From: Sphingobium lignivorans
GTDB lineage: Bacteria; Pseudomonadota; Alphaproteobacteria; Sphingomonadales; Sphingomonadaceae
DNA length: 64,000 bases
Reading direction: 5' to 3'
Assembly (NCBI RefSeq): GCF_014203955.1
Contig: NZ_JACHKA010000001.1
Coordinates: 434,001 to 498,000 of the forward strand
Shown here: piece by piece, positions 28,045 through 31,198 of the stretch
Position numbering within the stretch: the stretch's first letter is position 1
Layout of the letters: each line of letters opens with the position of its first letter
Translations under genes and position numbers: made by a program
Notes under the pieces: model-generated
What the model was told of the DNA's origin: nothing
What the model saw: only the letters and a program-made list of their open reading frames with translations
The model's database searches: none

Positions 28045-28599
28045 TCAGCGGCAGACCACGTCGCCGCGATCGATCTCGCGACCGATCATCGCGCCGGCGC
28101 CGGCGCCCAGCACCGCGCCCAGGATGGACGAGCGGCCCTGGTCGATCTGGTCGCCCAGCAGCCCGCCGACCGCCGCGCCGATGATGAGGCCGGTGGTGCC
28201 GTCCGAGCGGCGGCAATAATAGCGGTTGTCATGGCCGCGATAGACGCGGGTCTCGCGCGTCACGCGGATCGGGGCATAGCCGCCGCGATAATAACGGTCC
28301 GCATAATAGCCGCGATAGCGCGGGTCGGGCCGGTTCCAGTCATAAGCATAGACGACGCGCGGCGCCGGGCGGACGACAGGGCGGCGATCGATCACCACGA
28401 CCCGGTCCGGCCCGCGACGGTCATGCTTCCAGTGGCGGTCATTCCGGCGGTCATGATGCCGGCGATCGTCGCGATCGCGCTTCCAGTGGCGGTCATTGTC
28501 CCGCCCGCGATCGGCATAAGCCGGGGTGGCGGCCAGACCGCCGATGGTCACCGCGCCCAGCACGAGGGCCGCGACGCTCTTCTTCAGTGCCTTGTACAT
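28045..28599 (-). CDS. Exported glycine-zipper (2TM) protein with basic His/Arg-rich region
   Basis: A 184-aa protein. The signal peptide is SVAALVLGAVTIGGLAATPA. A very basic repeat region (NDRHWKRDRDDRRHHDRRND and a second RHWKHDRR copy) resembles RcnB-type periplasmic proteins, followed by YDWNRPDPRYRGYYADRYYR. The C-terminal glycine zipper (TGLIIGAAVGGLLGDQIDQG, ILGAVLGAGAGAMIGREI) is seen in 17-kDa-antigen-like outer-membrane proteins. ATG 28599 is preceded by GGAG; the frame is open to 28698. The His-rich part may bind metal. Ends in a clear intrinsic terminator. Confidence 0.82.
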   Translation of the reverse strand: MYKALKKSVAALVLGAVTIGGLAATPAYADRGRDNDRHWKRDRDDRRHHDRRNDRHWKHDRRGPDRVVVIDRRPVVRPAPRVVYAYDWNRPDPRYRGYYADRYYRGGYAPIRVTRETRVYRGHDNRYYCRRSDGTTGLIIGAAVGGLLGDQIDQGRSSILGAVLGAGAGAMIGREIDRGDVVCR

Positions 28600-28712
28600 C
28601 TGTCTCACTCCGACATCTGTTCTGTCTCTCCCGGCAGCGGGGAGAACAGGTCGGAGCCTAACGCGATTCGCCTGAACCGGCAGCGACGGGCGGTTCATGT
28701 GGGAGAAAGGGG

Positions 28713-28904
28713 TTATTTCGGTGCCAATGGCATTTCTGCTATCTGCGTTCGGCTTTGGCAGTCACGGCAGAAAGCATCGTCGTAGGCCGTTCCCAGCACC
28801 CATTCTTGCTGCGCTTCATTCCACTCGGCCCATGCATCTAGCGCAACGGCCGTGCCCTGGCAGTTCAGGCAGATATATGTGACGGGCTTGCGACCAGTTT
28901 GCAC
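28713..28904 (-). CDS. Small zinc-ribbon-like protein
   Basis: A 63-aa protein with two CxxC knuckles (YICLNCQGTAV and AFCRDCQSRTQ) about 30 residues apart, flanking AWAEWNEAQQEWVLGTAYDD. This is a treble-clef/zinc-ribbon arrangement. GTG 28904 is taken as start; the SD is weak. It is transcribed away from the HNH gene, with 41 bp between starts, so the two probably share a promoter region. Small proteins of this look occur in alphaproteobacteria without an assigned role; binding to nucleic acid or a protein partner are options. Confidence 0.65.
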   Translation of the reverse strand: MQTGRKPVTYICLNCQGTAVALDAWAEWNEAQQEWVLGTAYDDAFCRDCQSRTQIAEMPLAPK

Positions 28905-28945
28905 CTGAGTAGGATCGCACGCTGTGGCAAAGGGGGCAAGTAAAC

Positions 28946-30100
28946 GTGACGAAAAGTTGGTCCGATGCGGTGACCGATGCTGTGAGACGACACGTCGCCG
29001 CCACGGGTTTGCGAACCTTCACGCGTCAAGCGCTTATAGATTCTCAGTTAGACAATATTGTGTCGGAAACCGGCTCTGCTGGAGCGACACCTCACCAGAC
29101 CCTCAGTCGGGAATTGCAGCAACTTCGCGATAGGGGATTACTCGAATTCCTCGATCATGGAATCTATCGTTGGATGGGTGCTGCGCCTAACCCGGATCGC
29201 AAAGGGCTGCATAAAGGCGTCTTCGTTATCGGGTCACATTCCATTTATCAGGATGAACCTGATCGTTTTTATCGCTTCCCGGTAAAATGGCTTGCCAATG
29301 CGTCCAAGATCGAAGGCAACTGGATTATCTATCAAGAGCCCCGGCGTGCCGGACGGCGGGGCTATTATGCTGTTGCCAGGTTCGAAAAAATTGTTCCTGA
29401 CCCGGCTAAAGAGAAAATGTACTTGGCCCTCATAGCGCCCGGTTCATATTTGGAATTCGGTCGTGACGTACCTTTTCAGGTGGAGGGCGCGGCGGTCGAG
29501 CGAGGGCTCCTAAATCCCGATGGTCGGCTGAACAACGGACGAGCCATTCAATCCATAAGGCCGATTTCGGACGAGGATTTCAATCGTATCGTTGGCCTGG
29601 GCCTTGTCGATGAAGACGAGCTTTTGCCGAGAAGCGAGAATGCTGAGGTCCTCAACACCGTTCGGGAAGAGGCTCTGCCCTGGCACGGCCCGATCGACCG
29701 GGCCACAATGCTTGTAAATCGCGCTGTCAGAGATCGGCAGTTTCGTAAGCGTGTTCTTGATGTCTACGATTGCCGTTGTGCACTGACTGGGATGAAGTTG
29801 ATCAACGGCGGTGGTCGTGCTGAAGCACAGGCCGCGCATATTATGAGTGTCGCAGCCGGTGGGCCTGATCTAGTTAACAACGGAATCGCTCTTTCCGGCA
29901 CCGTTCACTGGATGTTTGACAGAGGACTGATCTCGTTGAGCGATGATGGCGAGATTTTACTCTCTCGCAAAATCAACGACATTGAAGGCGTCCGCAGGCT
30001 CATCCATGATGACCAGAAAGCTCGATTCCCGATCTCTTTGGCGCATCGTCCCCATGCGCGTTACCTTGATTGGCACCGGCGCGAGTGCTTCAGCCCTTAA
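28946..30100 (+). CDS. Predicted modification-dependent-type nuclease: winged helix, PUA/EVE-like domain, HNH_2
   Basis: A 384-aa protein. Residues 1-75 look like a winged helix (FTRQALIDSQLDNIVSETGS, TLSRELQQLRDRGLLEFLDH, GIYRWM). Residues about 90-180 resemble a PUA-superfamily/EVE module (DRFYRFPVKWLANASKIEGN, WIIYQEPRRAGRRGYYAVAR, MYLALIAPGSYLEFGRDVPF), folds used to read modified bases. The C-terminal part is an HNH_2-type nuclease: CRCALTG, then EAQAAHIMSVAAGGPDLVNN and HWMFDRGLISLSDDGEI, with the H, N and H positions kept. Start GTG 28946 has AAGGGGGC upstream. Base composition is visibly more AT-rich than neighbouring genes, suggesting acquisition. No methyltransferase is adjacent, which fits a type IV-like stand-alone restriction role (inference). 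Confidence 0.72.
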   Translation: MTKSWSDAVTDAVRRHVAATGLRTFTRQALIDSQLDNIVSETGSAGATPHQTLSRELQQLRDRGLLEFLDHGIYRWMGAAPNPDRKGLHKGVFVIGSHSIYQDEPDRFYRFPVKWLANASKIEGNWIIYQEPRRAGRRGYYAVARFEKIVPDPAKEKMYLALIAPGSYLEFGRDVPFQVEGAAVERGLLNPDGRLNNGRAIQSIRPISDEDFNRIVGLGLVDEDELLPRSENAEVLNTVREEALPWHGPIDRATMLVNRAVRDRQFRKRVLDVYDCRCALTGMKLINGGGRAEAQAAHIMSVAAGGPDLVNNGIALSGTVHWMFDRGLISLSDDGEILLSRKINDIEGVRRLIHDDQKARFPISLAHRPHARYLDWHRRECFSP

Positions 30101-30142
30101 GGTTCAAACTTCCGAGGGCAGAGGAATTGCTTCTCTGTAGCC

Positions 30143-31198
30143 CTACTCCGCCGCCACCCCGGCCCGAGAGAACATATCCTCGCCGCCTTCGGTTTCGTCG
30201 CCTGCGCCGTCGTTCGCGCGCATTTTCTTGCGGCTGTCGAAGCTGTCCCACACTTCGTTCCAGTTGCCGCGCGTGGCGCCCTTGGAATATTCGGTGGCGC
30301 GGGTCTCGAAGAAGTTGGCGTGCTCCACGCCGTTGAGCAGCGGGGTGAGCCAGGGGAGCGGGTGCTCCTCGATCATGTAGACCGGCTTGAAGCCGAGCTG
30401 GCCCAGGCGCCAGTCCGCGATGTAGCGGATGTAGCGCTTGATCTCGTTGGCGGTCATGCCCGGCACCGGCCCCTGCTCGAAGGCGAGATCGATGAAGGCG
30501 TCCTCCAGCCGCACGGTCTTCTGGCAGCAGTCGATGATGTCTTCCTTCACCGCCCGGGTGAGGCAGTCGCGCTCCTTCACGAATTCGTGGAACAGGCGCA
30601 CGATGCCTTCGCAGTGCAGGGTCTCGTCGCGCACGGACCAGGTGACGATCTGCCCCATGCCCTTCATCTTGTTGAAGCGCGGGAAGTTCATCAGCATGGC
30701 AAAGCTTGCGAAGAGCTGCATGCCCTCGGTGAAGCCGCCGAACATGGCGAGGGTGCGGGCGATGTCCTCGTCGCTGTCCACGCCGAACTGCTGCATATAG
30801 TCATGCTTGGCACGCATCTCGTCATATTCGAGGAACATCGAATATTCGCTCTCGGGCATGCCGATGGTGTCGAGCAGGTGCGAATAGGCCGCGATGTGGA
30901 TCGTCTCCATGTTGCTGAACGCGGTCAGCATCATCTTGATCTCGGTCGGCTTGAACACGCGGCCATATTTGTCGTGGTAGCAATCCTGCACTTCCACGTC
31001 CGCCTGGGTGAAGAAGCGGAAGATCTGCGTGAGCAGGTTGCGCTCATGGTCGGAGAGCTTCTGCGCCCAGTCCCGGCAGTCCTCGCCCAGAGGCACTTCC
31101 TCGGGCATCCAGTGCACCTGCTGCTGGCGCTTCCAGAAGTCATAGGCCCAGGGATATTCGAAGGGCTTGTAGACCTTGGAGGCTTGAAGAAGAGACAT
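30143..31198 (-). CDS. nrdB: Class Ia ribonucleotide reductase, beta (radical) subunit
   Basis: A 351-aa R2 protein that carries the diiron-tyrosyl radical cofactor for ribonucleotide reduction. Helices with metal ligands are visible: LTQIFRFFTQADVEVQDCYH, FSNMETIHIAAYSHLLDTIG and WSVRDETLHCEGIVRLFHEF. The C-terminal tail is acidic and aromatic as needed to dock with NrdA. ATG 31198 follows GGAG; the longer open frame to 31456 is a shadow. No ATP-cone is fused at the N terminus. It is separated from nrdA by about 2.1 kb of unrelated genes. Tandem NrdR-like boxes lie upstream. Confidence 0.94.
   Translation of the reverse strand: MSLLQASKVYKPFEYPWAYDFWKRQQQVHWMPEEVPLGEDCRDWAQKLSDHERNLLTQIFRFFTQADVEVQDCYHDKYGRVFKPTEIKMMLTAFSNMETIHIAAYSHLLDTIGMPESEYSMFLEYDEMRAKHDYMQQFGVDSDEDIARTLAMFGGFTEGMQLFASFAMLMNFPRFNKMKGMGQIVTWSVRDETLHCEGIVRLFHEFVKERDCLTRAVKEDIIDCCQKTVRLEDAFIDLAFEQGPVPGMTANEIKRYIRYIADWRLGQLGFKPVYMIEEHPLPWLTPLLNGVEHANFFETRATEYSKGATRGNWNEVWDSFDSRKKMRANDGAGDETEGGEDMFSRAGVAAE

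Follow-up and report, generated by a model that had tools for sequence, protein, structure and literature searches.

The window, as the whole stretch of 64,000 nucleotides analysed here is called, was taken from the genome of Sphingobium lignivorans (G000; 4,207,152 bases in one contig, conspecific with G171). An open reading frame encoding 384 aa lies at positions 28946..30100 of its forward strand. On the reverse strand, at 28713..28904, a second ORF encodes a zinc-ribbon-like protein of 63 aa with four cysteines arranged as CxxC...CxxC. Both ORFs begin with a GTG codon, and a divergent intergenic gap of 41 bp (28905..28945) separates the two starts. The gene for the small subunit of ribonucleotide reductase, nrdB (30143..31198), is found on the same strand as the 63-aa gene, convergent with the 384-aa gene, and its stop is situated 42 bp past the stop codon of the latter. 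The 3' end of nrdB forms one edge of a variable slot. The other boundary is given by a gene for a 217-aa protein (28045..28698, reverse strand), the flank of which is 75.9% identical in DNA over 659 columns to that of the sister genome G123. In G123 both flanks are the same and the slot holds a DUF4145 gene instead. The flank opposite nrdB, common to the window and G123, differs between genera.

GC content measured in 500-bp windows is 0.52-0.56 over positions 28750-30249, and this trough ends 42 bp from nrdB. The remaining 500-bp windows between 24 and 40 kb range from 0.59, inside nrdB, to 0.73. Third-position GC of the 384-aa gene is 0.55. An earlier note, made from the sequence alone, had described a low-GC divergent pair with AT-rich codon use, wedged beside nrdB, and this description is accurate. 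The adjacency to nrdB is not incidental, since the slot holds many other defence-type genes (see below). No direct repeats of 9-12 bases, which could represent a target-site duplication, were found around the insertion; the exact-repeat search returned one inverted match of 10 bases. The counterpart of the 384-aa gene in Sphingobium sp. SYK-6 is 99% identical, with 20 synonymous and three non-synonymous differences in 1152 bases, and the synonymous rate falls inside the range of the neighbouring core genes. This copy, together with full-length homologues at six other loci (57-81% identity), indicates that the gene is real. It is a resident gene under purifying constraint.

In the 384-aa protein Pfam recognized an HNH_2 domain (2.3e-7, which passes the cut-off) and, weakly and below the cut-off, DpnI_C. 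The top NCBIfam match over the HNH part was a phosphorothioate-DNA restriction family, at 90.8 of 180 bits and thus also below the cut-off. For the middle domain no family was named by Pfam, NCBIfam, PADLOC or PHROGs and therefore a comparison of folds was needed. The AlphaFold2 model, based on a 42-row alignment of the window protein with 41 of the 86 loci fetched, had a pLDDT of 80.7 and a pTM of 0.75, with a linker (residues 227-249) below pLDDT 50. In Foldseek only VcaM4I (2.4e-10) and TagI (1e-5) were matched with E below 0.001. They were followed, at E 0.002-0.07, by ScoMcrA, PH1033, THYN1, the N-domain of McrB and DpnI, the last with a probability of 1.00 but an E of 0.067. Superposition of the whole chain on VcaM4I and TagI was poor (TM 0.25-0.33). 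This implies that the domains alone match, not their arrangement, and that domain-wise comparison by VIA is more telling.

By VIA three domains are predicted. Residues 1-77 (28946..29176, forward strand) form an N-terminal winged helix like that of DpnI (4kyw; Z 11.1, rmsd 1.6 A over 71 residues), in keeping with the Foldseek and weak Pfam matches. On this stretch the winged helices of MukE, MCM and ORC reach Z 8.7-9.3, and the lead of DpnI over generic winged helices is therefore modest. Residues 88-220 (29207..29605, forward strand) are modelled as an EVE/PUA-superfamily domain, presumably a reader of a flipped base, that compares best with PH1033 (2hd9; Z 12.8, 2.4 A over 123 residues) and also with 2eve (Z 10.6). 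Residues 228-384 (29627..30097, forward strand) contain the HNH nuclease domain named by Pfam, which resembles that of TagI (6ghs; Z 14.2, 2.3 A over 112 residues). The model thus bears out the succession of winged helix, PUA/EVE-like domain and HNH nuclease that had been proposed from the sequence, including the PUA-like fold that structure prediction was to reveal in the middle region. A fold that reads modified bases would be fused to a nuclease, as in type IV enzymes, and within residues 88-384 EVE would precede HNH in a single chain, the order of VcaM4I.

The presumed catalytic residues H298, N312 and H321 were kept in all 42 rows of the alignment, the window included. They have the spacing of H296, N310 and H319 of HHPV4I, mutation of any of which is described as abolishing cleavage (PMC10101028). 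The earlier assertion that the H-N-H residues are intact is thereby upheld, and no aligned homologue has lost them. Y109, F111, W126, Y129 and Y140 in the EVE domain are invariant aromatic residues in the same alignment. The base pocket of VcaM4I consists of P24, W82 and Y130, to which these five would be candidate counterparts. The EVE motif E131-P132 is lost in the homologues L005 and L006, which have AS and GS respectively at this position; the reader may have changed its specificity in these two or gone out of use.

At least 575 relatives of the protein were confirmed among the candidates. The winged helix is present in seven of the best 80 of these loci and 72 align only from residue 72-92 onward; L053, also among the 80, runs off its contig. 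Some match was found in 113 of 396 Sphingomonadales genomes, a full-length one in eight, and in six of these eight the fused form adjoins nrdB. In all, the fused gene is located beside nrdB in eight lineages (window/SYK-6, L002, L003, L004 [= G301], L007 [= G374], L141, G272 and G273), and in L005 and L006 it adjoins another gene, which we take to be UvrA-like. The 11 proteins that carry the winged helix, G272 included, form one clade with a support of 1.0 in a 44-tip tree of the EVE-HNH part. This suggests that the fusion probably arose once. Third-position GC is as low in L007 as in the window and less low in L002 and L004, whereas L003, L005 and L006 have near-normal values (0.77-0.78). Homologues fixed at a core position with normal GC would have spoken against the restriction system proposed in the earlier note. 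The fused form does recur beside nrdB and partly with near-normal GC, but with eight of 396 genomes it is not fixed, and the low values of the window and L007 stand. L141, an IMG/VR contig of 4577 bp, is the only contig of a viral collection with the full-length gene; the partial nrdB and the PemK-like toxin gene that it also carries suggest a piece of chromosome and not viral DNA.

The residues K229, R231 and Q235 are described as important in the winged helix of DpnI (PMC10101028). In the profile alignment Q235 corresponds to Q58, and gapless extension of this alignment places T52 and S54 at the positions of K229 and R231. As both of these residues are replaced and only Q235 is kept, reading of Gm6ATC is not predicted: the domain is DpnI-like in fold, not a predicted Gm6ATC reader. 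Of the winged-helix fusion proteins surveyed in PMC11037411, about 10% are reported to carry the DpnI-type motif or one close to it; for the remainder that source considers it probable that modified DNA of some other, unspecified kind is read. The replacements would also agree with a protein in which EVE alone reads the modification and the winged helix simply anchors the DNA or, as an autoregulator, represses divergent transcription from the 41-bp gap, and so would the far greater abundance of the form without winged helix among the best 80 loci. Yet eleven of its residues (F25, R27, T48, P49, T52, R55, Q58, R61, D62, G64 and Y74) are invariant in eight sequences down to 51% identity. The same winged helix also occurs in two other HNH proteins without an EVE match, in front of the HNH_2 domain in L361 (= G155) and behind the HNH domain in L360 (= G131). 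We regard a mere anchoring or autoregulatory role as quite possible, if short of an even chance. In L360 (1172-2107, 311 aa) the C-terminal winged helix behind the HNH domain is accompanied by a further N-terminal part, so that the module stands in reverse order.

Among known enzymes VcaM4I (PDB 6yex; PMC7897488), the top Foldseek match, shares the EVE domain followed by HNH. Unlike the 384-aa protein it is without a winged helix, and sequence similarity is detectable over the HNH part only. HHPV4I/HhiV4I and HtuIII, as described in PMC10101028 and PMC11037411, contain the same three kinds of domain in the order PUA-wH-HNH, whereas the order modelled here is wH-EVE-HNH, and in the 384-aa protein the lysine and arginine typical of a Gm6ATC reader are replaced. 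TagI has a similar HNH domain with an SRA reader instead of EVE and no winged helix. DpnI has a C-terminal winged helix of the same fold with the conserved glutamine, but its lysine and arginine are not kept here and the 384-aa protein has no PD-(D/E)XK domain. The table of 16 enzymes in PMC11037411 comprises archaeal and viral ones and a single one from a Gram-positive organism, and EVE-HNH fusions in general had been predicted earlier (PMC7641849). The wH-EVE-HNH order differs from that of the published PUA-wH-HNH and EVE-HNH enzymes found, of which HHPV4I and VcaM4I are the closest.

Taken as a class, the modelled domains indicate that the protein is probably a stand-alone type IV restriction endonuclease. 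We give a probability of roughly three in four to the reading that the gene encodes such a modification-dependent enzyme and is cargo of the variable slot behind nrdB. A modification of the DNA would then be the trigger. The EVE domain would read the modified base, with the winged helix as an extra DpnI-type module beside it, and the HNH domain, possibly in a dimer, would cut, which may protect the cell against phage. Such an enzyme would work without a methyltransferase partner, because the host would not make the mark that is read.

The earlier note had stated that no methyltransferase lies nearby. This holds for the window (434-498 kb of the contig), in all 64 kb of which searches with PF01555, PF00145 and PF02086 gave no match; elsewhere in G000 the matches to PF01555 (two genes) and PF00145 are at 2.08-2.28 Mb, far from the window. 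PF02086, the Dam-type family, had no match in the whole G000 genome, while the same search was positive in four of 14 named genomes. Its absence is consistent with an enzyme that spares a host lacking the mark, without being proof. The sole PF00145 match (L357, at about 2.114 Mb) is partial and lies in a phage-looking stretch; if active, its product could make a mark that the EVE domain would read.

The statement does not extend to three of the relatives. In L002 a 201-aa fragment of a phage-type methyltransferase (phrog_799) lies between nuclease and nrdB, and in L005 (9293-10933) and L006 (9896-11518) the nuclease is followed by a PF01555 N6/N4 methyltransferase with an Mrr_cat-like part. 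One could thus see in the 384-aa protein the restriction component of a system that once included a methyltransferase, now missing from the window. These methyltransferases, however, are of two unrelated kinds, and no methyltransferase motif was found beside L001, L003, L004 or L007. Moreover, the enzyme of L005 and L006 has a restriction-nuclease-like domain of its own, possibly inactive, and it is in these two loci that E131-P132 is lost. A lost partner is consequently improbable.

The 63-aa protein matches phrog_32296 (2.3e-11), and a scan of viral contigs for it found nothing. Its single-sequence model is poor (pLDDT 68.4). Homologues are present in 30 of 396 genomes. Downstream of nrdB and on the nrdB strand a homologue was found in 12 of 101 regions, and in just two of the 12, the window and G272, the nuclease is present too; others occur in different contexts, some of them phage-like as judged from the ORFs. 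The gene adjoins the nuclease in seven of the eight nrdB-linked lineages, all but L002, as against 10 of 99 nrdB flanks without the nuclease (Fisher 5e-6, a value that ignores shared ancestry and compares lineages and background flanks collected in different ways). A homologue anywhere in the genome was detected in all eight genomes with the fused nuclease and in 22 of 388 others (4e-10, ancestry likewise ignored). The contrast in adjacency suggests that the two genes travel or are kept together. In view of this enrichment next to the nuclease, the idea that the 63-aa protein merely resides at the site was given up.

A partner role is possible, and the two genes might constitute one system in which the small protein serves as regulator, immunity or accessory factor. 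Against this, the gene stands behind nrdB without the nuclease in the 10 regions mentioned, and in L002, L005 and L006 no copy was detected in the vicinity of the nuclease. Together with the limits of the p values this makes a two-gene system rather doubtful. The suggestion that the small protein may be an accessory or regulator, for which a survey of co-occurrence had been proposed, thus gained a strong association with the nuclease but not an exclusive one.

An nrdB homologue is present in 381 of 397 genomes of the family. The region 3' of nrdB was collected from 100 further genomes and the window; after L256 (176 bp) had been left out, 100 were usable. A dip in GC, defined as a 300-bp block within 1.5 kb whose GC is lower than that of the region itself by more than 0.10, was observed in 61 of the 100, the window included, and about two fifths of the sample were without one. 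Some dips, for example those of L216, L282 and L295, contain no convincing cargo ORF. Excluding the window, 80 low-GC ORFs of at least 100 aa were found downstream of nrdB in 62 regions. The majority (72 of 80) are on the nrdB strand, and in 19 regions 20 bp or less separate the nrdB stop from the start of a cargo ORF; the nuclease of the window thus has the minority orientation. Because the cargo so often lies this close behind nrdB on the same strand, it may be expected to be expressed with ribonucleotide reductase.

Pfam and PADLOC were applied to 70 of the 80 ORFs, ten ORFs of 102-147 aa having been left out by eye. Among the 25 of 42 Pfam families listed, NaeI, SIR2_2 and DUF4145 occur three times each, BglII, AbiTii, MT-A70, Panacea, GmrSD_N and deaminase twice, and NgoMIV, C5-methylase, Abi_2, CAP12-TIR, AAA_21, Abi_C, putAbiC, DUF4062 and TIR_2 once; families without a tie to defence, such as AsnC, DUF6680 and DUF4917, are listed as well. 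Type II restriction endonucleases are thus part of the cargo, and no integrase was noticed among the listed families. Scans of individual cargo also revealed DarT and RelA_SpoT, and gave no match for L242 and L269. The DUF4145-type proteins recur as low-GC single genes, that of L199 by its own table and that of L202 by similarity. In G272 a SIR2_2 gene and the wH-EVE-HNH nuclease share one interval. L241 encodes a protein of 499 aa in which a dCMP/cytidine deaminase domain (PF00383) was recognized, and the PADLOC dCTPase model matched two of the 70 ORFs (best 8.6e-147). For a defence gene that acts on the nucleotide pool, a place next to ribonucleotide reductase would be suggestive.

In T4-like phages HNH genes act as free-standing homing endonucleases that target nrdB. 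The HNH domain and the position next to nrdB could suggest that the window gene is of this type. The same slot, though, holds genes that do not encode nucleases (SIR2, TIR, RelA/SpoT), the EVE and winged-helix parts match modification-dependent enzymes, and the L005 and L006 copies are not beside nrdB. Homing is therefore very improbable, and cargo of a defence slot remains the preferred reading.

The 70 cargo ORFs matched 210 PADLOC families versus nine for 95 control ORFs from the gmk and nrdA 3' flanks. These are counts of families, not of proteins, in which related models, many of them SIR2, are counted separately; the cargo ORFs were chosen by low GC (mean 277 aa) and the controls by a coding-bias rule (mean 213 aa). 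A dip below the gene's own GC was present in 24 of 30 nrdB 3' flanks, namely those of the loci most similar to that of the window (22 of 28 without the window genome and its conspecific), versus 10 of 147 pooled control flanks (nrdB 5' 0/30; gmk 3' 2/29 and 5' 1/28; nrdA 3' 3/30 and 5' 4/30). In matched genomes, that is 15 with listed nrdB coordinates and a place in the control draw or its neighbourhood, the values were 7/15 for nrdB 3' and 9/61 for the other flanks pooled (p 0.012; nrdB 5' 2/15; gmk 3' 1/10 and 5' 0/10; nrdA 3' and 5' 3/13 each). Outside the Sphingomonadales the effect is weak (7/26 versus 3/28 on the 5' side). The slot effect is thus real, and its size depends on the sampling, being smaller in matched genomes.

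A conserved flank with variable, defence-enriched cargo, as found 3' of nrdB, is one mark of a core hotspot. The core defence hotspots of Pseudomonas aeruginosa (PMC10250203) likewise hold variable defence genes at a fixed core-gene site, and like them, as far as that source describes them, the nrdB slot is not obviously one kind of mobile element. It differs in that its cargo, roughly one or two genes in 2-3 kb, is far smaller and in that it spans a family, whereas the former belong to one species and to other sites. No nrdB-linked defence site is described by any of the titles listed in searches of open-licence PMC full text. On balance we lean, by a little, towards the view that the Sphingomonadaceae as a family have a defence slot at the 3' end of nrdB, in which single genes, the possible dual-reader nuclease and its 63-aa neighbour included, would be repeatedly exchanged, perhaps by recombination between conserved flanks, and often expressed with ribonucleotide reductase. 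Sphingomonads would fill it with different defence-type functions, mostly of one or two genes.

If this reading of the nuclease is true, the wH-EVE-HNH chain would be a natural permutation of the domains that may read modified DNA through two inputs. It could then help to examine whether enzymes of this kind combine signals from adenine and cytosine marks. Of greater importance than the single nuclease is the slot. The low-GC genes behind nrdB of sphingomonads constitute a short list of candidate anti-phage genes that might escape a guilt-by-association approach based on large defence islands, and this cargo is possibly coupled to ribonucleotide reductase.
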